This document shows positions 3,464 through 42,377 of a stretch of 64,000 bases of DNA, piece by piece. Source of the DNA: an uncultured Cohaesibacter sp. (lineage in GTDB: Bacteria > Pseudomonadota > Alphaproteobacteria > Rhizobiales > Cohaesibacteraceae); contig NZ_OY761553.1 of NCBI RefSeq assembly GCF_963664735.1, positions 3,841,001 through 3,905,000 on the forward strand. Reading direction: 5' to 3'. The position numbers and the translations under genes were made by a program. Within the stretch, counting starts at the first letter, position 1, and each line of letters begins with the position of its first letter. The notes under the pieces were generated by a model, which was not told the DNA's origin, did not search any database, and saw nothing but the letters and a program-made list of their open reading frames with translations.

Positions 3464-4159
3464 ATGCAATGGCTGACAAACTGGATGATGAAAGAAGGGC
3501 CAGGCATCCGCAAGGATGAGCCGAAGAAGACCGGCTTGGCGCTTTTCTTCAGTATTCTGGCGCGTGAGCCGTGGGAGCTTTTCAAACTTAACCTCTTGAT
3601 GCTGGTGCTTTCCATTCCGGTCGTAACCATTCCAGCCAATTTTGCCGCAGGCTGCCGCATATGCACCCTGATGATCGAGGATGAGGTGGTGTTTCTGTGG
3701 CGCGATTATTGGCGGGCTTTTGCGCGTTTGGGGCCGAAGGCTACGGGCTATGGGCTTGTCTTGGCGCTTGGGCTGTCCCTGTGCGGTTATGCCTTTTTCA
3801 TATACAGCCAGTTCGCGCTCAATGATGTGATCTATATTGCTCCCGCTGTCTTGGCGTTTTTTGTTTTCCTGTTCCTGATGATGGTTGGGGTTTGCCTCTT
3901 TGCGCTTCTGGCAAAGGGTAATATGGCACCTGTCGATATGGTGAAGGCTGCCCTCGTGGCGTCTCTGGCCCGGCCTCTCTCTGTTATTGCGGGTGTCGGC
4001 TTTGCCGCTCTTCTGTGGCTGGCGCACATCGTTTTTTATCCGGCATCCATTTTTTTGCCGGTCGTTCTCAACTTTTCTCTCGGTGCGTTTGCGATGATGT
4101 TCGGAGCGTATCGGGCCACTGATTTCGCGCTAGGGGTGGAAAGCTCTGTGAACTCCTGA
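3464..4159 (+). CDS. YesL-like DUF624 membrane protein
   Basis: A 231-residue protein with about five hydrophobic membrane segments. It matches the DUF624/YesL group in layout: an N-terminal PWELFKLNLLML segment, a central cytoplasmic stretch (VVFLWRDYWRAFARLGPKATGYG), then pairs of helices. YesL genes are recurrent companions of sugar ABC importers, as in the Bacillus yes rhamnogalacturonan operon, but their molecular role is not established; an accessory or regulatory role in uptake is the usual guess. A run of seven G bases provides the ribosome site before the ATG. It lies between the ATPase and binding-protein genes and is surely cotranscribed with them. Confidence 0.85.
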   Translation: MQWLTNWMMKEGPGIRKDEPKKTGLALFFSILAREPWELFKLNLLMLVLSIPVVTIPANFAAGCRICTLMIEDEVVFLWRDYWRAFARLGPKATGYGLVLALGLSLCGYAFFIYSQFALNDVIYIAPAVLAFFVFLFLMMVGVCLFALLAKGNMAPVDMVKAALVASLARPLSVIAGVGFAALLWLAHIVFYPASIFLPVVLNFSLGAFAMMFGAYRATDFALGVESSVNS

Positions 4160-4214
4160 AAGGGCGCGGAAGTTTTTGCATCAACATGATGCAAGTTTGA
4201 TTGGAGGAACAAAC

Positions 4215-5480
4215 ATGAATAGAATTACCAAAGCTGCTCTTATGATTACAGCTGGTCTGATGCCTTTTGCCGCTCAAATGGCCAGCGCTGAAACCATTAA
4301 CTGGGCCTTGTGGGATTGGAACAAGACCGCCTATTACAAACCATTGATCAGTGCCTTCGAGGCCAAATATCCAGACATCAAGGTTGAATATACCGATTTG
4401 GGCTCCAGCGATTACACAACCATGCTGATGACTCAGCTTTCCGGCGGTGGATCTGATATTGACGTTGTGCAAGTCAAGGATATTCCAAGCTACGCAAACT
4501 TGATGAAGACCAAATCCATCATCAGCCTCAATGATGATATCAAGGCCTCAGGCATCGATGCATCCTCTTATGGTGGGCTGATTGAAGAATTGACCGTGGA
4601 AGGCAATACCTATGCTTTGCCATTCCGCTCTGACAGTTGGCTGGTCTATTACAATAAGGACTTGTTTGACAAAGCCGGAGTTGCCTATCCAAGCAATGAT
4701 ATGTCCTGGGATGAATTCGCTAACATTGCCCGCAAGGTAACCAGCGGCTTTGGTGCCAACAAGAATTATGGCGCCCTTTTCCATACGTGGCGTTCTACCG
4801 TCGAGCTGCCTTGCATTCTTGATGGCAAGCACTCACTTGATGGTGGCGACTATGGGTTCCTTAAATCCTGCTATGAGCGCGTGCTGAAATTGCAGGAAGA
4901 GAAAGTCGTTCCTTCTTATGCGACGCTGAAAACTTCTGGCACGCACTATTCGGGCCCATTCTTTAACGGTCAGGTCGCCATGTTGCCAATGGGCAGCTGG
5001 TTTATCGGCACCCAGATCGCCAAGGTCGCAAGCGGGGAGTCCCTTTCCAAAAACTGGGGTCTTGTAAAATATCCAACACCTGAAGGCGTAGCCGCAGGCA
5101 CGACCGCAGCAACAATCACCTCATTGGCTGTCAGCACCAATTCCAAGCACAAAGATGCAGCTCTCAAGTTCATCAACTTTGTTGCCGGCCCGGAAGGGGC
5201 AAAAGTGGTTGCTGAAACCGGCACTCTGCCAGCCATCAAGAATGACGAAGTTCTGAGCGTGATTGCTTCCAAGGAAGGCTTCCCGCAGGATGCCAATTCC
5301 AAGGCTGCCCTGCAAACGGTCAAAGGTTATCTGGAAATGCCGGTTAACCTGTTGGCTGCCAAAATGGAAGTGGTCCTCAACCGAGCTCATGATTCCATCA
5401 TGACTGACAATATTTCCATTGAAGATGGCCTCAAGGAAATGAACGAAGGCGTTCAGGCTATCATCAAGGAAGCAAAATAA
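4215..5480 (+). CDS. Sugar ABC transporter substrate-binding protein
   Basis: A 421-residue periplasmic binding protein of the extracellular solute-binding family 1 (MalE-like). The ATG at 4215 is chosen because GGAGG lies at 4203-4207 and a signal peptide follows at once (positively charged start, hydrophobic core, cleavage near ASA-ET at about residue 24). An in-frame TTG at 4176 would bury the signal peptide. The mature part begins with the ETINWALWDWNK strand and has the FEAKYPDIKVEY pattern of the family. It is the last gene of the importer set and is followed by a strong terminator at 5539-5570, after which the beta-galactosidase gene begins. Confidence 0.94.
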   Translation: MNRITKAALMITAGLMPFAAQMASAETINWALWDWNKTAYYKPLISAFEAKYPDIKVEYTDLGSSDYTTMLMTQLSGGGSDIDVVQVKDIPSYANLMKTKSIISLNDDIKASGIDASSYGGLIEELTVEGNTYALPFRSDSWLVYYNKDLFDKAGVAYPSNDMSWDEFANIARKVTSGFGANKNYGALFHTWRSTVELPCILDGKHSLDGGDYGFLKSCYERVLKLQEEKVVPSYATLKTSGTHYSGPFFNGQVAMLPMGSWFIGTQIAKVASGESLSKNWGLVKYPTPEGVAAGTTAATITSLAVSTNSKHKDAALKFINFVAGPEGAKVVAETGTLPAIKNDEVLSVIASKEGFPQDANSKAALQTVKGYLEMPVNLLAAKMEVVLNRAHDSIMTDNISIEDGLKEMNEGVQAIIKEAK

Positions 5481-5653: not shown

Positions 5654-8600
5654 ATGACGACATATCCAGATCTTGACTGGTTGTCTGATCCTGAGGTTTT
5701 TGCGGTTGGACGCCTTGGGGCCTATTCCGATCACATTGCCTATCCTTGCGTTGATGCGGCCAAGGCCCGGGGGGCGAGCGCTTTTCGTCAGAGCCTTAAT
5801 GGCACATGGCAATTTAGCCATGCTAACAAAGTGGCGGACAGGCCAATAGGCTTTGAAGCTGAAAGTTTCGATGCTTCTGGCTGGGGGGATATCGAAGTTC
5901 CCGGTTACATGCAGCTACAGGGCTATGGCTCAAACCAATATGTAAATACCCAATATCCATGGGATGGCGTTGAGTATCTTCGTCCACCACACATTCCTGA
6001 AGCCAATCTGGTCGGTTCCTACCGGACGCAATTTGCCTTTGCAAAGCAGGAAGGGGCAGGGCGTGTCGTGCTCACCTTCGATGGCGTGGAGACGGCCTTT
6101 TTCGTTTGGCTTAATGGAGCCTTCGTCGGCTATAGCGAGGATAGCTTCACTCCGGCGCATTTCGATGTTACCGAACTTGTGCGAGAGGGCGACAATCTGT
6201 TGGCGGTGCAGGTATTTCAGCGCTCATCGGCCAGCTGGATCGAGGATCAGGATTTCTGGCGCCTCACCGGCATTTTCCGCGATGTCTGGATTGAGCAGCA
6301 ACCGTGGCTTCACTTGCAGGATCTGTTTGTCAAAACTGATCTTGATGACGATTTCTCTTCCGCTGTGTTGCATCTGGATATGGCTCTCGCCGCGCCTGCC
6401 GGTGGCTCGGTGGATGTTTGCCTCTGTGACCCTGATGGCAAGAGCGTTGCCTCAATGGACGGGGTGGCTGTTGAGGCCAAGATGGATCTCTGCTTCAGTG
6501 TTGATGATCCCCGGCTCTGGAGCGCCGAGGCGCCTCATCTTTACAGCGTGATGCTGACGCTGAGGAATGCGGATGGCTCTGTCTCTGAAGTGGTGCCGCA
6601 ACGGGTCGGTTTCCGCCGGTTCGAGATGGTCAACAAGGTTATGGTGCTCAATGGCAAACGGATTGTTTTTGCCGGTATCAACCGGCATGATTTTGACGCG
6701 CGTTGCGGCAGGGCGGTGACCTATGAGCAAATGCTGTGGGACGTGAAATTCTTCAAGCAGCACAATATCAATGCGGTGAGAACCTGCCACTATCCGAACC
6801 AATCTGTTTTCTATGATCTTTGCGATGAATATGGGCTCTATCTGATTGATGAGGCCAACCTTGAATCCCATGGTTCCTGGCAGAAGGATGGCAAGTGCGA
6901 TCCGGAATGGACCGTGCCCAATGACGATCCAAGGTGGCATGACTGCGTGCTGGATCGTGCCAAATCCATGCTGGAGCGGGACAAGAACCATCCTGCTATT
7001 CTGATCTGGTCCTGTGGTAACGAGAGCTACGGTGGCAAGGCGATCTTCGATATGTCGGAATATTACCGTCAGCGCGACCCGTCCCGCTTGGTGCATTATG
7101 AGGGCATCGTCTGGGATCGCCGCTATAATGGCACATCCGACATGGAAAGCCACATGTATACCAAGCCGCAGGATGTGGAAGCTTATCTGCGCAATGACCC
7201 TCAGAAGCCTTTCATTTTGTGCGAATATATGCACGCAATGGGCAATAGCTGTGGCGGGATGCATCTCTACACCGATCTTGTCGATAAATACACGCTCTAT
7301 CAGGGTGGTTTCATCTGGGACTATATCGATCAGGCGATTGCAATCGGCGATTCCGAGGATGAAAGCGACCATCGGCTTGGCTATGGCGGAGACTTTGGAG
7401 ACCGGCCTAGTGACTATGAGTTTTGTGCGGACGGGATCGTGACTGCATGGCGTGAACTGACGCCAAAGGTTCAGGAGGTCAAAAGCCTCTATCAGCCATA
7501 CGATCTGACAGCGGACCAAAATGGTGTTTCTATTCGCAACAAGAATCTGTTTGTCTCGTCGGAAGGGCTGGTGCTTGCCTATCGGCTGCTTTTGGATGGC
7601 GAAGAGATTTTCAGCGGCAAGAAAGCTTGTGATGTGGCAGCTGGTGCTACAGAATTTGTCGTGCTGGATTTGCCTCAGGCAACCGAGCCGGGTGAATATG
7701 TGGTCCAATGCTCTCTATGCTTGGGTGCTGCGACACTTTGGGCTGATGCCGGGCACGAGCTGGCCTTTGGTGAAACGGTCTGGACTGTTGAGGGCGTGCT
7801 TGCGGCTCCTGCTGTCTCCAGCCTCACGCTCATTCACGGTGATCTTAATTTCGGGGTTGAAACAGAGGCGTTCAAGACCCTCTTTTCTATGGTGTTTGGC
7901 GGGCTTTCTTCCATCAAGGCAAATGGGCTGGAATTCATCCGCCGCCCGCCGCGTCTCACCTTCTGGCGGGCAATGGTGGACAATGACCGCGGTCGGCATC
8001 AGGGCTTTGAAATGGCCCAATGGCAGACCGCAAGTCTCTATTATAAGCGCATTGGCTATGAGGTTGGCGAGATCGATGGCGAGCCGACGATTTCCTACCG
8101 TTTCGCATTGCCGAACCTGCCGATTGAGCCAATCGTAGTCTATCGTGTCGGCAAGGATGGCCTCATCCATGTGGAGGCGCATTATCCGGGTGCGGAAGGC
8201 CTGCCCAACATGCCGATCTTCGGCTTGCAGCTGACCATGGATGCGCAGTTTGATCGCTTCCGCTTCTATGGCCTCGGACCAGATGAGAATTATTGTGACC
8301 GCATGCGCGGTGCGCGGCTTGGTATCTTCGAGAGTACGGTGGCAGACAACTTGCCAGCCTATCTGGTGCCGCAGGAAAGTGGCAATCGCATGGGTGTGCG
8401 TTGGGCCGAAATGGTGAATGGCGACGGTGTCGGCTTGCGGTTTGTGGCGGAAGGCGATCCGTTTGAATTCGGGGCGCTGCCATGGGGCACAATGGAGCTC
8501 GAAAGCGCATTGAGGGTCGAAGAATTGCCTCCGGTCTATCGCTCGGTTGTTACCATCGCTGCCAGACAGATGGGGATTGGCGGGGACGACAGCTGGGGGG

Positions 8601-24134: not shown

Positions 24135-24938
24135 TTAATGGCCGGAAGTCTGACTTTTTATAAGGTCTGAAACACGATCGGCATTGTCTTTGGCAACAGA
24201 ACCATCTGCATTGAACATATTGTTTTCAAAGCCGATTCTGACTTTCCCGCCGAGTTCTTGCGCTCTTCTTAGGCAGTTTGTTTCCTCAGCTCCGAAAGCA
24301 CAAGAGGCCCAGTCTGCCTTGATATTGAGAGCGGTTTCCAGCGTTTGCTTGGCCTTGATGAATGGGACAAGATCATCCGGTGTGGAAACCTGCCCCGTCG
24401 TGTAGCGTCCCAAAACAAACAGGAGCTGCAGAGACGAGGCCGGTATGATGTCGCGTTTGCAAAGATCGAGTAGCTGCTCTACTTCTTTGCCACTGTAAAG
24501 AATGTGCTGAATGGCGACCGCCTTGTCCGCTTGTTCATGATAAAAGCGCATGACTTGGGGTGTTTCACCGTCGCTCAGCATTTCCTTTACAGAGATCGAG
24601 ACAGCTGCGGGTTCCACAGCTTCCACCACGGCCCGCTGTTCGGCGGGGCCATATTGTCCCACGGCCTCTGTTGTGATCTGGGCATAGAGTGTCGGGGTTT
24701 GCGTTGCCAACTCTGCGAGCAGCTCCTTATAGAGGCCTGGATCTAGAATATGCTTGCCTTGAGCATCGCGCACATGGGCATGGATGCCATCAGCTCCGGC
24801 TTTTTGGCAGGCGATTGCTGTTGCAACCGTTTCCTCGATGGTGATCGGCAGGGCGGGATGGTCCGCCTTGCCTTTGCGTGCACCGTTGGGTGCGATCATG
24901 ATCGAGGGAAGAACTGCGTATGTTGCAGCTGCAGTCAT
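24135..24938 (-). CDS. BKACE-family beta-keto acid cleavage enzyme (DUF849)
   Basis: A 267-residue TIM-barrel enzyme of the group that reacts a beta-keto acid with acetyl-CoA to give acetoacetate and a new CoA ester. Signs are the N-terminal IMIAPNGA stretch, the metal-binding GADGIHAHVRDAQGKH motif (residues about 49-64), and KVRIGFENNMFNADG near the end. Its start overlaps the stop of the upstream aminotransferase in an ATGA, indicating translational coupling. The family is known for different beta-keto substrates (3-keto-5-aminohexanoate, dehydrocarnitine and others); the substrate should be whatever the aminotransferase makes. No CoA transferase or thiolase lies nearby to use the products. 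Confidence 0.9.
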   Translation of the reverse strand: MTAAATYAVLPSIMIAPNGARKGKADHPALPITIEETVATAIACQKAGADGIHAHVRDAQGKHILDPGLYKELLAELATQTPTLYAQITTEAVGQYGPAEQRAVVEAVEPAAVSISVKEMLSDGETPQVMRFYHEQADKAVAIQHILYSGKEVEQLLDLCKRDIIPASSLQLLFVLGRYTTGQVSTPDDLVPFIKAKQTLETALNIKADWASCAFGAEETNCLRRAQELGGKVRIGFENNMFNADGSVAKDNADRVSDLIKSQTSGH

Positions 24939-26257
24939 GGCAGCACCTTGTCCATTGCAATTTGCAATTTGCCAACAAGCTCCTCGATATGTTCGTCCTC
25001 ATAGATGAACGGAGGCGCAAGCAGGATGTGATCGCCAAATTTGCCGTCGATTGTGCCACTCATCGGATAGCAGATAAGGCCAGCCTCAAAGGCTTCCTTT
25101 TTCAGATGCTTGGCTGTTGCGAGGGACGGATCAAACGGTTTTTTGGTTGCCTTGTCCTCAACAAACTCAATACCAAGGAACATGCCTCTGCCGCGAATGT
25201 CGCCGACAAAGGGGTGTGACCCGAATGCGTCTTCAAGTGCGGAGCGCAGCTTTTTGCCCGTTTCTGCGGCGCGTTTCACAAGGCCACCGTCAGTGAGTTT
25301 GGTCAGAACAGCCAAGGCGCCAGCGGCCGCTGTCGGGTGCCCGATATAGGTGTGGCCGTGCTGGAAGAAGCCTGTTCCTTCCTCAATTGCTTTATATATG
25401 GTGCCGGTGCAGAGCATGGCGCCAATTGGCTGATATCCTGCGCCTAGACCTTTGGCTGTGGTCAGGATGTCGGGAGAGATGCCGTCCTGTTCGCACGCAA
25501 ACAGAGTTCCGGTGCGGCCCATGCCACACATGACTTCATCGAGCACCAAAAGGATGCCATATTTGTCGCAGATTTCGCGGATGCGCTTGAAATAGCCTTC
25601 GACCGGAGGCAAAGCGCCAGCTGTTGCGCCGACAACGGGCTCGGCGAAGAAGGCCATGACCTTTTCCGCACCTACGCGCAGGATTTCGGTTTCCAGTTCA
25701 TTGGCAACGCGCTGGCCATAGTCAAAGGCGCTCTCGCCTTCCTTGCGGTCACGATATTCGTAGCAGGGAGAGATGTGGCTGGTTTCGATCATCAGGGGGG
25801 CGAAAGGCTCGCGGCGCCAGAGGTTGCCACCGGTAGCCAGTGCTCCGAGTGTGTTGCCATGATAGCTCTGGCGGCGGGCGATGATGTGGCGGCGCTGGGG
25901 TTGGCCGATCTCAAGGAAATATTGGCGTGCCAGTTTGATTGCCGACTCAACAGCTTCCGAGCCGCCGGAAACGAAATAGACCCGATCAAGCCCATCGGGA
26001 GCGTGTTCAATCAGTTTGTCGGCAAGGGCTTCTGTCGGTTTGGAGGTAAAGAAGCTGGTGTGGGCAAAAGGCACGGCATCGAGCTGCGCCTTGATGGCAT
26101 TGATGACGTCCGTGTCGCCATGGCCCAAACAGGACACTGCGGCTCCCCCTGATCCATCCAAATAGCATTTTCCTTTAGTATCATAGAGGTAAACGCCTTT
26201 TCCGTGGTCTACTGTGGGAAGATTGGACTTGGTGTGTCTAGGGAATATGTGGGACAT
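24935..26257 (-). CDS. Class III aminotransferase (PLP-dependent)
   Basis: A 440-residue aminotransferase. The PLP lysine is in LTTAKGLGAGYQPIGAM, the ring-stacking aspartate in LVLDEVMCGMGRTG, and the phosphate site in YFVSGGSEAVESAIKLARQY. The start at 26257 (MSHIFPRHT) is where family members begin; the frame runs upstream to 26344 with unrelated sequence. It is the first gene of a minus-strand operon whose second gene, the BKACE enzyme, overlaps it by 4 bp. Family members act on omega- or beta-amino acids. With BKACE downstream, the expected product is a beta-keto acid, so a beta-amino acid or similar amine is a reasonable substrate. This is inference. Confidence 0.92.
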   Translation of the reverse strand: MSHIFPRHTKSNLPTVDHGKGVYLYDTKGKCYLDGSGGAAVSCLGHGDTDVINAIKAQLDAVPFAHTSFFTSKPTEALADKLIEHAPDGLDRVYFVSGGSEAVESAIKLARQYFLEIGQPQRRHIIARRQSYHGNTLGALATGGNLWRREPFAPLMIETSHISPCYEYRDRKEGESAFDYGQRVANELETEILRVGAEKVMAFFAEPVVGATAGALPPVEGYFKRIREICDKYGILLVLDEVMCGMGRTGTLFACEQDGISPDILTTAKGLGAGYQPIGAMLCTGTIYKAIEEGTGFFQHGHTYIGHPTAAAGALAVLTKLTDGGLVKRAAETGKKLRSALEDAFGSHPFVGDIRGRGMFLGIEFVEDKATKKPFDPSLATAKHLKKEAFEAGLICYPMSGTIDGKFGDHILLAPPFIYEDEHIEELVGKLQIAMDKVLP

Positions 26258-36848: not shown

Positions 36849-38474
36849 ATGAGCTCTTTGGAAGTCGTTTGGTCTGATTTGGTTCGTCACCGTCAGGAAA
36901 TGTCTGATTTTACCCTGCGCTCTGCTTTTGCTGAAGACGCGGAAAGATTCGAACGTTATTCAGCGGAAATGGACGGATGCTTGACGCTCGACTATTCGCG
37001 CAATCGCATCCAGGACAAAACCCTGATGTTGCTTGAAAATCTGTTGCTTCAGGCTGATGTTGCCGAGCGCTACAAGGAAATGAAAGCCGGTGTTGCGATC
37101 AACAATACCGAAAAGCGCTCCGTCCTTCACATTGCCCTGCGCGGCAGTGTCGACGAAGATCTGGTGGTTAACGGACAGCCGATCGCAGCTGACGTGAAAG
37201 CCGTTAAAGAACGTCTTTATGCCTTTGCCAAAGGAGTTCGCGGGGGATCTATCGCGGCAAAAGATGGCAAACCATTCACCGATGTGGTCAATATCGGTAT
37301 CGGAGGCTCTGACCTTGGTCCTCACATGGTGACCGCAGGTCTTGCCGCTTTCCATGACGGGCCACGGGTGCATTTCGTTTCCAACGTGGACGGCGCTCAC
37401 ATGGGCGATACACTCAAGAAACTTGATCCCGCTCGTACCCTGTTTCTTGTAGCGTCAAAAACCTTCACGACACAGGAAACCATGACCAACGCGCGCGCTG
37501 CCAAGACATGGCTTGTTGCTGCGCTGGGCGAAGATGCTGTCGGCGATCATTTCGCCGCTCTTTCCACCAACAAGGAAGGTGTGGAAGGCTTCGGTATCAG
37601 CACCGAGCGGATGTTTGAATTCTGGGATTGGGTCGGTGGTCGTTATTCGGTCTGGTCTGCTATCGGTTTGCCGGTGATGATTGCGATCGGGCCTGAAGGG
37701 TTCGAAGACTTTCTGGACGGTGCCCGCTCGATGGACCATCACTTCGAAACTGCTCCATTCCGCGAGAACCTGCCGATGCTCATGGCTGCGCTCGGCCTCT
37801 GGTATCGCAACATCTGGGCTTGCACTTCGCTTGCCGTTTTGCCTTATGACCAGCGGCTTGAATATTTCTCGGCCTTCCTGCAGCAGCTTGATATGGAATC
37901 CAACGGCAAGCGGGTGCGCCGCGATGGCTCCGAGATTCACCGGGCGTCCGGCCCTGTCATTTGGGGCCAGTCTGGCACCAATGGTCAGCATGCCTTCTAT
38001 CAGGAACTGCATCAGGGGCATGATATTACCCCTTGCGAGTTCCTCGTTGCTGCCAAGCCGACGGATGCTGACGAAGGTCAGCATGAGCTACTTATTTCCA
38101 ACTGTCTGGCTCAGGTGGAGGCGTTGGCGTTTGGCCGCACGGCTGAAGAAGCAAAGGCTCAGCTGGAGGCTGCGGGCAAATCCCCTGAAGAAGTGGCCGC
38201 TCTCGTGCCGCACAAAGTCTTTCCGGGGAACCGCCCGACCTCGCTTCTGTTCTATGATCAACTGACCCCGAAAATGCTGGGGCGTCTGATCGCGCTTTAT
38301 GAGCACAAGGTGTTCGTTCAGGGCGTTGTCTGGGGCGTGAACAGCTATGACCAGTGGGGCGTTGAGCTTGGCAAGGAACTGGCCAACAAGCTCGCACCGG
38401 CCGTCAAATCGGCTGAACGCGGCGCAGGCGACCCGGCCATTCTCGACCGCCTCAAAGCCTATCGCGCCAAATAA
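36849..38474 (+). CDS. pgi: Glucose-6-phosphate isomerase
   Basis: A 541-residue enzyme interconverting glucose 6-phosphate and fructose 6-phosphate. Family signatures are visible: NIGIGGSDLGPHM, the FLVASKTFTTQETMTNA phosphate-binding stretch, GGRYSVWSAIGLP, and WGQSGTNGQHAFYQELHQG with the catalytic Glu/His. A lysine near the end in EHKVFVQGVVWGVNSYDQWG is also conserved. The ATG at 36849 starts four codons inside a longer TTG frame and gives a normal N-terminus. It stands alone, with a terminator at 38518-38548. Confidence 0.97.
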   Translation: MSSLEVVWSDLVRHRQEMSDFTLRSAFAEDAERFERYSAEMDGCLTLDYSRNRIQDKTLMLLENLLLQADVAERYKEMKAGVAINNTEKRSVLHIALRGSVDEDLVVNGQPIAADVKAVKERLYAFAKGVRGGSIAAKDGKPFTDVVNIGIGGSDLGPHMVTAGLAAFHDGPRVHFVSNVDGAHMGDTLKKLDPARTLFLVASKTFTTQETMTNARAAKTWLVAALGEDAVGDHFAALSTNKEGVEGFGISTERMFEFWDWVGGRYSVWSAIGLPVMIAIGPEGFEDFLDGARSMDHHFETAPFRENLPMLMAALGLWYRNIWACTSLAVLPYDQRLEYFSAFLQQLDMESNGKRVRRDGSEIHRASGPVIWGQSGTNGQHAFYQELHQGHDITPCEFLVAAKPTDADEGQHELLISNCLAQVEALAFGRTAEEAKAQLEAAGKSPEEVAALVPHKVFPGNRPTSLLFYDQLTPKMLGRLIALYEHKVFVQGVVWGVNSYDQWGVELGKELANKLAPAVKSAERGAGDPAILDRLKAYRAK

Positions 38475-38517
38475 ACCTCAATTAGCGACAAGACCGCTTT
38501 TGGCGAACCCGCTATCC

Positions 38518-38548
38518 AGCCCGTCGGATCAAACCGGCGGGTTTTTTG
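38518..38548 (+). terminator. Terminator of pgi
   Basis: CCCGTCGG (38520-38527) pairs with CCGGCGGG (38534-38541) around ATCAAA, followed by six T bases. Confidence 0.88.
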
Positions 38549-38803
38549 TATCTACAATAAACCTACTCCACCGGTGGAGATCATGCTTTAATTTTGTTTG
38601 TAGTATGCAAAAACAGCCAAATCTTACGCTTTATTGAAAGAGCAATAGACTGCAGAAGACATCTAGACGGAAGTATTATCGTAAATGCGGCTTAATAGAG
38701 CATTGTAAGCTTAGCGATGCCGCGAAGCACAATTTTCGGGAATTCTTAGTGTTACGGCAACAAAAGCACGGAAAATAGTAGTAATGGTCATGGTGTATGT
38801 GTC

Positions 38804-38840
38804 TTGATTTGTATCATTGACGTATTCTTGTTTGTATTCA
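38804..38840 (+). repeat. Two near-identical direct repeats upstream of the peptide gene
   Basis: TTGATTTGTATCA at 38804-38816 and TTGTTTGTATTCA at 38828-38840 share most bases and start 24 bp apart, close to two helical turns. Their position 70-110 bp before the peptide start suits an activator or repressor site. It is weak evidence on its own because the region is AT-rich. Confidence 0.35.
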
Positions 38841-38850
38841 ACTCTAAGTC

Positions 38851-38864
38851 GGCAACTAATTGCC
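38851..38864. promoter_or_regulatory. Palindrome GGCAA-N4-TTGCC before the peptide gene
   Basis: GGCAACTAATTGCC has 5-bp perfect arms around four bases, 48 bp upstream of the peptide ATG. It could be an operator or part of the 5' leader. Confidence 0.4.
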
Positions 38865-38912
38865 GTACTGGTAAGTCAAGCGTAGAGGTGAGCAAGACGT
38901 CGGAGGATTGAG

Positions 38913-39113
38913 ATGGCGAAAACATATACGAAGGAAAGCGCGCTCAAAGAGATTAGAGCTGCAAAGGCGGAATTGGAACGACTTGAAGAGAAAATCGAAA
39001 ACGGCGTGCGAGATGTCGCCGATTGTTCTTGTAGTAATCCTCCTTGCAGCGGCATGGATCCAGTTAGTTATCTGACTGCAGTTGGTGGTGCTTTGGCTGG
39101 TGGCGTCCTGTAG
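38913..39113 (+). CDS. Cys-containing 66-residue peptide, candidate RiPP precursor
   Basis: I do not recognise a named family. The first 36 residues are a charged, probably helical leader rich in Lys, Glu and Ala (KEIRAAKAELERLEEKIEN). A short core-like segment holds three cysteines at 38, 40 and 45 (DCSCSNPPCSGMD), and the tail is hydrophobic and glycine-rich (AVGGALAGGVL). GGAGGA just before the ATG is a strong ribosome site. The next gene, 86 bp away, is a radical SAM/SPASM enzyme, so this is most likely the substrate of a thioether- or crosslink-forming maturase. Cys45 and Asp49 form a C-x3-D unit, the spacing crosslinked in the ranthipeptide freyrasin; one unit proves nothing. No leader-cleavage motif is certain. 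Confidence 0.75.
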   Translation: MAKTYTKESALKEIRAAKAELERLEEKIENGVRDVADCSCSNPPCSGMDPVSYLTAVGGALAGGVL

Positions 39114-39129
39114 CCATCTGCTGAGAAAA

Positions 39130-39161
39130 TGCGGCGTGGACTATTGTCAGGCTGCGCCGCA
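39130..39161 (+). ncRNA. Stem-loop between peptide gene and radical SAM gene
   Basis: TGCGGCG (39130-39136) pairs with CGCCGCA (39155-39161) over 7 GC-rich base pairs with an 18-base loop. No T run follows, so it is not a standard terminator. Its place after a small precursor gene suits partial attenuation or 3' protection, giving more peptide than enzyme. It is part of the mRNA. Confidence 0.5.
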
Positions 39162-39199
39162 CGAGAAGCTGAATCTGATTGTCGGTTGAGGAAAGCACT

Positions 39200-40576
39200 A
39201 TGGGTGATTGGCCGGTTTTTGCGGGAAAGCTCTTCAATGATGAAAATGGGAGAAAATTCTACAATTCGTTGTCCGGCGAGCTAACCGATGTTTCAGAAAA
39301 TTTGGCAAATGTTTGCCGGGTTCACTCCGATCCCCGAGGCGGTTGCTTTTTGCCGCGCACAAACTCGGCTGCCGCGGATATGTCTCCCAGAATTGTAAAT
39401 CCGTACGAAGCTGAAAAAATCAGCAACTCACTGCAATCCCGGTTAAGGCTGCTTATTCTGGAGCTGACGCAAAACTGCAATTTAGCCTGCGCCTATTGCA
39501 TCGACGGGGATGCTTACCAGCAAAAGAATTGTATGACCCGACAAAATATGCGCCGAAGGGATGCTTTCCGCGCAGTTGACCTACTATTTGAGCGGAGCTC
39601 GGAACAAAAAAATCCGCTTTCTATTTCATTTTATGGCGGTGAACCGCTGTTGCGATTTCATTTGCTGCGCGATGTTGTCGCATATGCCCGAAAAAGGGGG
39701 GAAGTAGAGGAGCGGCAACTTGTCTTTGGAATGACGACAAATGGTACGCTTTTCGACGAACGGATTATCGACTTTCTGGCTGACAATGAAGTTCACTGTC
39801 TGATTTCTCTGGATGGAACGGCCACAATACACGACTCCTTTCGTCGCTCTAGAAAGGGCGAAGCAACTTTTAACAAGGTTATGGCGGGGTTGGACCTAAT
39901 TCGCCTTCGAAGGCCTGAATATTACCAGCGTTTCATCCAGATTTCAGTCGTTGTCATGCCCACTGCTGATCTTGACGCGCTTCAGGTGTTCTTCGATGCA
40001 CTTGATCTTCCGATGAAGGCCAATTTTGTTGAGTCTTACGGTTTGGACCTCGAAAACGGGGCTGCAAAGATAGATGTGGGCAGTATAGCAGCAGGATTGC
40101 GCACCCGTATGCAGGAGAATGGTCCTGATTATATTGAAAGTGCTCGCAGTGATCGTGATTTTGCCGCCTGTCTCTTGCGTAGCCTTATTGGCCGGATGCA
40201 GGGCGACGGCAAGAGCGTGGAATGTGGGCTCGGTCAATGTATTCCCGGCGTTTCGCGGCTTCTCATGGCTGCAGATGGCTGGTTCTATCCTTGCGAAAAA
40301 CTCGCGGGACATTCCTTCGCTCGAATTGGTCACATAGGCAGCAAAAAGGCTCTGCTTGAGGAAGAAAGAGTCAATCGCTTGGTTCAGGACTTCTACGATT
40401 TGGCCGAGCGTAAATGTGATGGGTGCTGGTTGGCTCCGCGCTGTTCTATGTGCCTGGCGTTATGTGTTTCCGGGGATCTCGTCTCGGAGGACAAATTCGA
40501 CTATTGTTGTCGTGGGCAACGAGCCGGTGGCAATTTTGGAGTTGAATTTCTGCGCGCCACAGGCATAGGGGGGTGA
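39200..40576 (+). CDS. Radical SAM/SPASM peptide maturase
   Basis: A 458-residue enzyme. The radical SAM cluster motif CNLACAYC (C93, C97, C100) binds the 4Fe-4S cluster that cleaves SAM; YGGEP follows at 145-149. The C-terminal SPASM domain supplies auxiliary cluster ligands: C342, C347, GWFYPC (C365), then C406, C409, C415, C418, C422 and C436/C437. The first 85 residues precede the barrel and may recognise the leader. ATG 39200 has GAGGA with 7-8 bp spacing; TTG 39179 is less likely. Immediately after a Cys-bearing small peptide gene, it is best read as its maturase. Anaerobic sulfatase maturase is an alternative, but no sulfatase is here. No protease or exporter gene accompanies it. Confidence 0.9.
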   Translation: MGDWPVFAGKLFNDENGRKFYNSLSGELTDVSENLANVCRVHSDPRGGCFLPRTNSAAADMSPRIVNPYEAEKISNSLQSRLRLLILELTQNCNLACAYCIDGDAYQQKNCMTRQNMRRRDAFRAVDLLFERSSEQKNPLSISFYGGEPLLRFHLLRDVVAYARKRGEVEERQLVFGMTTNGTLFDERIIDFLADNEVHCLISLDGTATIHDSFRRSRKGEATFNKVMAGLDLIRLRRPEYYQRFIQISVVVMPTADLDALQVFFDALDLPMKANFVESYGLDLENGAAKIDVGSIAAGLRTRMQENGPDYIESARSDRDFAACLLRSLIGRMQGDGKSVECGLGQCIPGVSRLLMAADGWFYPCEKLAGHSFARIGHIGSKKALLEEERVNRLVQDFYDLAERKCDGCWLAPRCSMCLALCVSGDLVSEDKFDYCCRGQRAGGNFGVEFLRATGIGG

Positions 40577-40721
40577 ACACACGACCGGCGGTGACAATTC
40601 AATTTTCTAAATTTGGCCTTGCGGATAACCCGGTTTCTTTGATTCCTTGCGCAGCTTCCGGATTGTAGTCTGTCCGTCATATAAATGTTCGCGCTGTCCG
40701 CAGTTTGGCCATTCCGCAGTG

Positions 40722-42377
40722 TCAATCGTGCGGTTTCCGCTTCGCCTCAGCCTTTCTTCTGGCAATGGTTTTGTGCAGGTCCGGGGCCGCGTTTATGAGG
40801 GCTTTGGTGTAGGGCTGCTGCGGGTTTTGGAAAATGCCTTCCGTCCGGCCCCGTTCGATGATCTTGCCGCGATACATGACCATGACTTCATCTGTGATCG
40901 AGCGGACCACAGAGAGGTCGTGGCTGATGAACAGGTAGGATAGGTCAAGCCGGTCTCTGAGATCTGTGAAAAGGTCCAGAATCTGGGCGCGAATGGAAAC
41001 GTCAAGGGCCGAGACGGGCTCATCGGCGATAATGATGCGTGGTTTGGTGATCAGGGCACGGGCGATGGCGATGCGCTGGCGTTCGCCGCCGGAAAATTCA
41101 TGGGGGAATTTCTCCGCATCCTCTGTTGCCAGGCCAACCTGTCGTAGCGTTGTTGCAATGCGCCTGTTCCGCTCATCGTTGTTGACGTCTTTCTGGAACA
41201 GGTAGAGAGGCTCAGCGATGGAACGTCCGATTTTGTGGCGTGGGTTGAAGGAACCGTTGGGGTCCTGAAAGACGATCTGGATATCTCGCCGGACCTGACG
41301 CAAATCGGTCTTGTTGGCCGAATAGGGGTCGTGATGTCCGATCCTGATCGCCCCTTTCTGTGGTGCTTCTAGGCCGAGAAGTGCTCGTGCTAGGGTGGAT
41401 TTGCCACAGCCGGATTCCCCGACAAGGCCGATGCTTTGTCCCTTGTGGATCGTCAGGTCCACGCCATCCACGGCTCTTGTGCTGCGCCGTTCGAGATAGG
41501 GGAATTGTCGTGGCAGGGGATAGGTGCGCACAACGGAGTTGGCGCTCAAAATGGGGGGCTCTTTTTCAAGGGCAGGATCGTCGCTGAAAACGGGTGGCTT
41601 TTGGCGCGTCGGCTGGTGTGTTGAGGCTGCAAACAGCTTCTGGCTATAGGGGTGGCTGAGCGTGTCGAACAGCTTGGGCAGCGGGCCTTGTTCTACGATC
41701 TTGCCTTTCTTCATGATGGCAATCGTGTGTGCCATGTCGGCGACAACGGCCAAATCGTGGGAGATCAGCATCAGCGCGGATTGATCTTCGCTCATCAGGC
41801 CCCGCAGTAGCTGCAGGATTTCGGCTTGTGAGGTGACATCAAGTGCAGTCGTCGGCTCGTCCGCGATGATCAGATCTGGTTTCATGGCGATGGCCATGGC
41901 GATGACGACGCGCTGGCGCTGCCCGCCTGAAAGCTGATGGGGGAAACGGTCTGGCGCAACCTGCTCAGGGCTTAGGCCGACCCGCTCCAGCTGTCGTTTT
42001 GCCAGTTTCTCTGCTTCATGACGGGTGACGGAGCTATGTTGGAGTATGCATTCCTCCACCTGTGCACCGATTGCCTTGAGCGGGTTTAACGCGGTCATTG
42101 GCTCTTGGAATACCATGCCCATCCGGTTGCCGCGCCAGCCGCAAAGCTGCCGTTCGGAGAGGGCGATCAGGTTTGTTTCTGCCAGATGAATGGAGCCGGA
42201 AAGGTGGCTTTGTCTCGGCAGGAGCTGCATGATCGAGAGCGCCGTCAGGCTCTTGCCTGAGCCGGATTCGCCCACCAGTCCAAGGCACTGGCCGCGTTCC
42301 AGCGAGAAGGAGACGTCCTTCAAAATGGGCTTGTCGCCAATGGTCAGACAGAGATTTTCAAGGGTCAGCAGGCTCAT
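40722..42377 (-). CDS. Peptide-type ABC transporter, fused double ATPase (DppD-DppF)
   Basis: A 551-residue protein made of two complete ATPase modules. The first has [11 protein letters not shown] and LSGGQRQR; the second, after a linker near residue 270, has [11 protein letters not shown] and FSGGERQR. Each half also has a Walker B ([24 protein letters not shown]). Fused forms like this drive dipeptide/oligopeptide/nickel-type importers. It is the last gene of a four-gene minus-strand operon; its start overlaps the stop of the permease by 4 bp. It converges on the radical SAM gene, with 145 bp between their ends and no clear terminator. Confidence 0.95.

Follow-up and report, generated by a model that had tools for sequence, protein, structure and literature searches.

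A candidate two-gene RiPP cassette combining a three-cysteine peptide with a divergent radical SAM/SPASM enzyme

An insert of two co-directional genes in the window, that is, in the whole 64,000-nucleotide (64-kb) stretch of DNA analysed here, quite probably constitutes a RiPP cassette that forms Cys thioether rings. The first gene encodes a 66-residue peptide, and the second, located 86 bp downstream, encodes an enzyme that is a deep lone branch of the CcpM/RumMC/Apre_1838/PapB thioether-maturase clade. Judged from sequence, the reading of the pair as a precursor and its maturase is well supported, with exceptions among related loci, because the enzyme belongs to this clade, CxC peptides are enriched near its relatives and the insert consists of two genes. 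The logic of such a pathway is known, and the precursor family and the enzyme branch were not found in the collections searched. The following features were recorded.

38518..38543, plus strand: intrinsic terminator after pgi (terminator search, congener comparison)
38550..40750, no strand: insert of about 2.2 kb, from pgi to the oligopeptide ABC ATPase gene (BLASTN against the stretches from 15 congeners negative)
38902..38906, plus strand: ribosome-binding site GGAGG of the peptide gene, six bases upstream of the ATG (sequence)
38913..39113, plus strand: candidate RiPP precursor gene, 66 aa (ORF call, sequence, structure model)
39130..39161, plus strand: stem-loop between the genes, 10-bp stem, no T run; rejected as a signal, as shuffled versions of the 90-nt stretch fold equally well (z 0.01)
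39188..39191, plus strand: ribosome-binding site GAGG of the enzyme gene, eight bases upstream of the ATG (sequence)
39200..40576, plus strand: radical SAM/SPASM peptide maturase gene, 458 aa from the ATG
40238..40300, plus strand: SPASM clade signature C-I-P-G-x14-C-E-K (sequence patterns)

The insert and the peptide gene

The insert, with a GC content of 0.486 against 0.522 for the window, contains the peptide gene and the enzyme gene only. In the five closest congeners, similarity extends through pgi and the terminator to 38545-38549 and is back at 40750-40762, resuming on the right at the 3' end of the oligopeptide ABC ATPase gene, which lies on the opposite strand and is also present in congeners, where the cassette is absent. 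The interval between pgi and the ABC ATPase gene (38475-40750 of the window) was read in 15 of the 17 congeners. It measures 6-67 bp in five of them, and in the other ten it is occupied by 1.2-7.4 kb of different sequence. Since the interval is near-empty or otherwise filled in these congeners, the cassette represents accessory cargo at a variable place. Transposase-like and sulfotransferase-like frames were recognised by eye in the other cargo of this interval. Direct repeats of at least 13 bases were not seen at the insert ends, and a search of 38470-40760 for sigma-70 promoter-like sites was negative. The enzyme gene has a GC content of 0.501 (window mean for other long ORFs 0.537, sd 0.025) and a GC3 of 0.497 (mean 0.589, sd 0.055); as these values are only mildly low, a strong claim of horizontal transfer from composition was dropped. 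The earlier note on this DNA had remarked that no protease or exporter is adjacent, which is correct as far as the insert is concerned; to its right follows the oligopeptide ABC ATPase gene. A C39 peptidase was not found in the genome by a search that was positive in 8 of 14 control genomes.

The peptide agrees with the description in the earlier note, which reported a strong ribosome site, cysteines at positions 38, 40 and 45, a charged N-terminal half and an unusual hydrophobic, Gly-rich tail. The putative core carries the Cys loop CSCSNPPC, a CxC followed by one more Cys, after which come 21 Cys-free residues. A helix at residues 7-37, an irregular loop carrying the three cysteines and a second helix at 50-62 in the tail were predicted by a single-sequence model, whose mean pLDDT of 67 and pTM of 0.36 make this layout only suggestive. 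The earlier note did not recognise the precursor family, and no NCBIfam or Pfam family reaches its cut-off with the peptide; there was no match to TIGR04065 (CLI_3235-family precursor) up to E 10 and none to any SCIFF model. Searches of the 17 congeners, plasmids and viral contigs yielded no homologue, and the only match in its own genome was the peptide itself; weak matches in the congener search (E 0.14 and worse) were judged to be chance. Under a strict rule (GGAGG or AGGAG), the two strands of the 64-kb window together contain six ORFs that encode 30-110 aa and have a minimum of three Cys, and two of these six have a CxC, namely the peptide and an ORF at 24790-24975 on the minus strand. 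Under a looser ribosome-site rule, seven window ORFs have three Cys and a CxC, the peptide included. A small ORF with CxC is therefore not rare by itself in the window, and the weight of the peptide comes from its position beside the enzyme.

Family and relatives of the enzyme

The 458-residue enzyme with CNLACAYC and a Cys-rich SPASM tail, as previously noted, was confirmed. CNLACAYC occupies residues 93-100 and forms the CX3CX2C motif (C93-x3-C97-x2-C100), and the radical SAM domain PF04055 is matched with 55 bits, above the cut-off of 29.5. Seven SPASM cysteines (347, 365, 406, 409, 415, 418 and 437) do not vary across 49 aligned rows, and the window enzyme retains the complete set of radical SAM and SPASM cysteines. 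The Pfam SPASM model PF13186 did not match the enzyme; it matches 16 of the 49 rows at E 0.01. With the TTG at 39179 as an alternative start, the enzyme would have 465 aa. The structure model of the enzyme (mean pLDDT 79, pTM 0.82) has at its N-terminus predicted strands at 6-14, 17-22 and 27-31 and a helix at 33-41, an arrangement that would be consistent with the beginning of an RRE leader-binding domain; Pfam RRE and PqqD leader-binding models gave no match. CteB, a SCIFF maturase that forms thioethers, is the best match of the enzyme both in fold (5why, E 1.3e-16) and in PDB sequence (5wgg, E 4.2e-25). However, identity in the fold alignment is only 16-17%, the SCIFF maturase profile gives 129 bits against a cut-off of 425, and the peptide, as stated, matches no SCIFF model.

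The five best NCBIfam profiles for the enzyme are all those of peptide maturases. CcpM (TIGR04068) comes first with 241.5 bits, half of its cut-off of 500, and is followed by RumMC (NF035951; 169.4 bits, cut-off 720), PapB (166, cut-off 340), TIGR04148 (164, cut-off 300) and the lachnocin maturase (156, cut-off 550). Among the best 25 of the 73 NCBIfam families matched, the enzyme is under every cut-off. Maturases of the putative sactipeptides of the Apre_1838 family (TIGR04067) share the SPASM signature and a CW-type tail with the window enzyme, but their identity to it is 24-27%, ABC transporter genes adjoin theirs and the peptides differ. All 49 aligned members match RumMC at 1e-40.

Relatives were collected by searching 84,980 species genomes at the DNA level for a pattern of the SPASM signature, C-I-P-G-x14-C-E-[KR]; as the pattern was derived from the signature of the window itself, the hit list is not an unbiased census. 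It gave 79 stretches, 62 with a complete enzyme and 17 without, and together with 11 further enzymes (four viral-contig matches and seven found earlier) 73 complete relatives were obtained, to which the window enzyme has 24-31% identity. The stretches are mostly from Bacillota, and the host of the window is Gram-negative, by its gene content probably an alphaproteobacterium. Ten lie outside Bacillota, in a count that leaves L137, L138, L169 and L186 unplaced: two of WOR-3, three of Aminicenantes and one each of Spirochaetales, Chlorobiaceae, Bradyrhizobium, Woesearchaeota and Prevotellaceae. Protein matches at E ≤1e-25 were present in 5 of 397 genomes of the order and 4 of 398 of the phylum, the genome of the window being counted in each, and no other match exceeded 32% identity. 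Of the 17 congeners that the order search covered, one of them only 64% complete, none matched the enzyme at E 1e-25. A 49-row profile including the window enzyme found only its own genome among 385 of the class (E 1e-60) and among 398 of the phylum (E 1e-55). Scanning of the 84,980 species genomes for close relatives with exact short peptide patterns yielded five pattern matches, none of which is a relative.

The clade assignment rests on the SPASM signature, profile scores and a tree. In the tree of 77 rows, the window enzyme falls within the clade and apart from the outgroups (SH-aLRT 98), where it stands alone with a branch length of 2.53 changes per column; its exact place inside the clade is unsure given the length of this branch. 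When the window enzyme is left out of the profile, it scores 273 bits (L020 345, L021 330 and L069 268), compared with 99-211 bits for eight enzymes outside the clade and 357-569 for eight randomly left-out members. A score between outsiders and left-out members marks it as an outlying clade member. Some further enzymes were observed in this collection. L070, an incomplete viral-labelled contig, has 40% identity over residues 87-239, above any complete relative, and was not accepted as a clade member, its frame starting just before CX3CX2C without the N-terminal domain and its C-terminal part lying off the contig. In L071 (viral-labelled, 3974-5157), a clade enzyme is spread over two frames, one with the radical SAM half and the other with the C-I-P-G...C-E-K half, so that the gene looks broken. 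The clade enzymes of L138 and L159 have 721-726 aa, about 240 residues above most of their kin.

Cysteine-bearing peptides beside related enzymes

The frequency of small Cys peptides was determined in 69 clade loci (the 73 minus four duplicates). The filter accepted an ORF if it encoded 30-110 aa, had a ribosome site, contained at least three Cys and a CxC, and lay no farther from the enzyme than 800 bp on the upstream or 500 bp on the downstream side; other ORFs from these loci with 250 aa or more served as controls. A CxC peptide adjoins the enzyme in 37 of the 69 loci and 5 of 61 control ORFs (Fisher P 1.2e-8, a generous value because a few loci are near-identical). When the CxC requirement was dropped, the counts were 40/69 and 15/61. 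The earlier note had proposed a minimal precursor and radical SAM/SPASM pair, and this part of its proposal is strengthened by the clade, by this enrichment and by the two-gene insert, whereas the freyrasin-type bond attached to it is not.

Homologues without any small Cys peptide nearby had been named there as evidence against the pairing, and on this point the outcome is mixed. Among the 48 loci with full flanks, the filter found a CxC peptide in 26 and none in 22. Two of these 22 (L020 and L201) have a CxC peptide missed by the ribosome-site rule, in L150 a CxC peptide lies about 1.5 kb downstream of the enzyme, the CxC peptide of L141 has only two Cys, and the Cys peptides of L188 and L165 do not contain CxC. 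In the remaining 16 loci, including L182, the closest by score, no Cys peptide was found, and this counts against a strict pairing rule. A wider look at L178, L182, L189, L191, L199 and L200 revealed no convincing precursor.

The peptides beside related enzymes were also compared with that of the window. As in the CcpM/CLI_3235 system (TIGR04068 and TIGR04065), several relatives have a Cys-rich, CxC-bearing small peptide just upstream of the enzyme, and that of L203 matches TIGR04065 (37.5 bits, cut-off 26). Unlike the CLI_3235-family precursors, the window peptide does not have a leader of the MKKLGKK...ETVEAY type, and it has three Cys rather than about six. At least four Cys are present in 15 of 16 clade precursors compared. 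In a shuffling test against these 16, p was above 0.03 for 12; lower values (0 to 0.014, uncorrected for 16 tests) were obtained for L142, L021, L152 and L020. Homology of the window peptide to clade precursors is not claimed, as the results are mostly at chance level and the low p values come partly from shared Cys. In the precursors of L155 and L166, both from outside Bacillota, a Cys cluster also lies mid-peptide before a Gly/hydrophobic tail, and this likeness to the window peptide is a resemblance, not homology. A C-x-C..(N/A)-P arrangement seen by eye in the window, L166 and L201 peptides was set aside, BLASTP of the L201 peptide against that of the window giving no match.

Several individual loci deserve mention. 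In L155 (Chlorobiaceae MAG), the precursor at 6388-6600 begins 30 bp after a CcpM-like enzyme, and in L166 (Bradyrhizobium MAG) a 71-aa precursor ORF lies 87 bp upstream of such an enzyme; neither has a meaningful NCBIfam match. The L201 (Prevotellaceae) peptide, 548 bp upstream of its enzyme, matches TIGR04149 weakly (16.8 bits, cut-off 25). C-C-I-C-x-P-N is common to the L201 and L166 precursors and their enzymes are sisters (SH-aLRT 99), a pattern for which transfer between phyla is a possible origin. L020 and L021 are further enzymes of the order of the window with very Cys-rich peptides adjoining, that of L021 having no NCBIfam match. In L142 (Spirochaetales MAG), three successive Cys-rich precursor paralogues stand upstream of one enzyme.

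Proposed maturation and alternative readings

In maturases of this kind, SAM is cleaved at the first cluster, a hydrogen is abstracted from a core residue, the Cys thioether is closed and the SPASM clusters take electrons. The Cys sulfur is bound to the alpha-carbon in sactipeptides and to the beta- or gamma-carbon in ranthipeptides. If the window pair is active in this way, the 66-residue peptide would be the precursor, its charged N-terminal helix (about residues 5-37) would serve as the leader, bound by the strand-rich N-terminal domain of the enzyme, and the C-terminal part with the three Cys would be the core. SAM would be cleaved at the CX3CX2C cluster, and the auxiliary clusters of the SPASM part would convey electrons. 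At least one of the three Cys would be linked through its sulfur to a carbon of a downstream residue, with a loss of 2 Da per bond. The product would be a small peptide with thioether rings and a hydrophobic helix rich in Gly, and its leader would be removed, and the product exported, by general cell machinery. Several facts count against the cassette reading: the peptide is without a family match or homologue and has only three Cys, the enzyme is below the cut-offs listed and on a long branch, and no processing or export gene is found in the insert.

With regard to the type of ring, a hairpin layout, with the Cys donors first and acceptors within residues 46-66, is favoured as a guess over CX3D links of the freyrasin type, and the core appears to fit it at least as well. 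According to PMC8326336, most sactipeptides are hairpins with the donor Cys first and the acceptors after them. Ruminococcin C, the RumMC sactipeptide, has a first hairpin that likewise starts with CxC, Cys22 and Cys24 being paired with residues 35 and 31 (PMC8172795); it differs from the window peptide in having four Cys and two hairpins. The earlier note had pointed to C45-x3-D49 as the spacing crosslinked in freyrasin, and a ranthipeptide in which a PapB-like enzyme joins C45 to the beta-carbon of D49 must be considered. PapB ranks third among the profile matches, and PMC9413430 describes it as linking Cys to the Asp beta-carbon in CX3D, tolerating many spacings and needing little beyond a Cys and a downstream Asp or Glu. 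PapA, however, receives six CX3D links according to the same paper, whereas the window peptide has a single CX3D; D49 is the sole D or E in residues 38-66 and Cys38 and Cys40 have neither at +4, so that at most one such bond could form. Moreover, PapB scores below CcpM and RumMC and under its own cut-off. The freyrasin-like reading is therefore considered unlikely, and the claim of the earlier note comes down to one spacing match.

The enzyme is far from characterised ones, and radical SAM/SPASM enzymes are known to introduce C-C or C-O crosslinks or epimerisation into other peptides. A change of this kind in the core, with the Cys unmodified or in a disulfide, is nevertheless quite unlikely, as the cyclophane families score much lower (YhhB 97 and FxsB 70 bits) than CcpM and a CxC cluster is common to many clade-adjacent peptides. 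It is also conceivable that a horizontally gained pair is decaying and no longer yields a product, with which the negative search of 17 congeners, the long branch and an insert without an export gene would be compatible; this is improbable given that both frames are intact with good ribosome sites and every cluster cysteine is kept despite about 70% divergence elsewhere. Most improbable is maturation of a protein encoded elsewhere in the genome, as by QhpD or sulfatase maturases, with the small ORF being incidental. PeaB/QhpD-like enzymes, taken as such from their neighbours, score next at about 182-211 bits, and the 16 loci without a Cys peptide would agree with it. The C-x-P-G...C-E-K signature, on the other hand, is absent from PeaB-like enzymes, the QHNDH maturase (QhpD/PeaB) profile gives the window enzyme 142.9 bits against a cut-off of 453, no QHNDH genes or any other gene accompany the pair in the insert, and the small ORF is co-directional, has a strong ribosome site and lies 86 bp upstream.

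For the preferred reading, thioether ring formation by a two-gene cassette, no title reporting this pair was found in a search of a limited literature library, conducted by text and not by sequence. In a survey of SPASM enzymes (PMC9062424), CcpM is among the previously annotated clusters and 22 new putative pathways are listed. It is a tentative and rather doubtful suggestion that the pair founds a new class of precursors in a Gram-negative host, in which a CSCSNPPC loop tied by a divergent maturase would be combined with the Gly-rich hydrophobic helix into a stapled, membrane-inserting product of stand-alone two-gene cargo without a dedicated protease or exporter. As a minimal, self-contained Gram-negative pair with three donor Cys and an unfamiliar peptide, it may offer a simple test of the choice of acceptor carbon, and it would widen the natural range of ringed peptides, a modest rather than startling addition. 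In the viral-labelled contig L081 (1915-3579), two CxxC-repeat peptides lie upstream of a radical SAM enzyme whose tail also has CxxC repeats.
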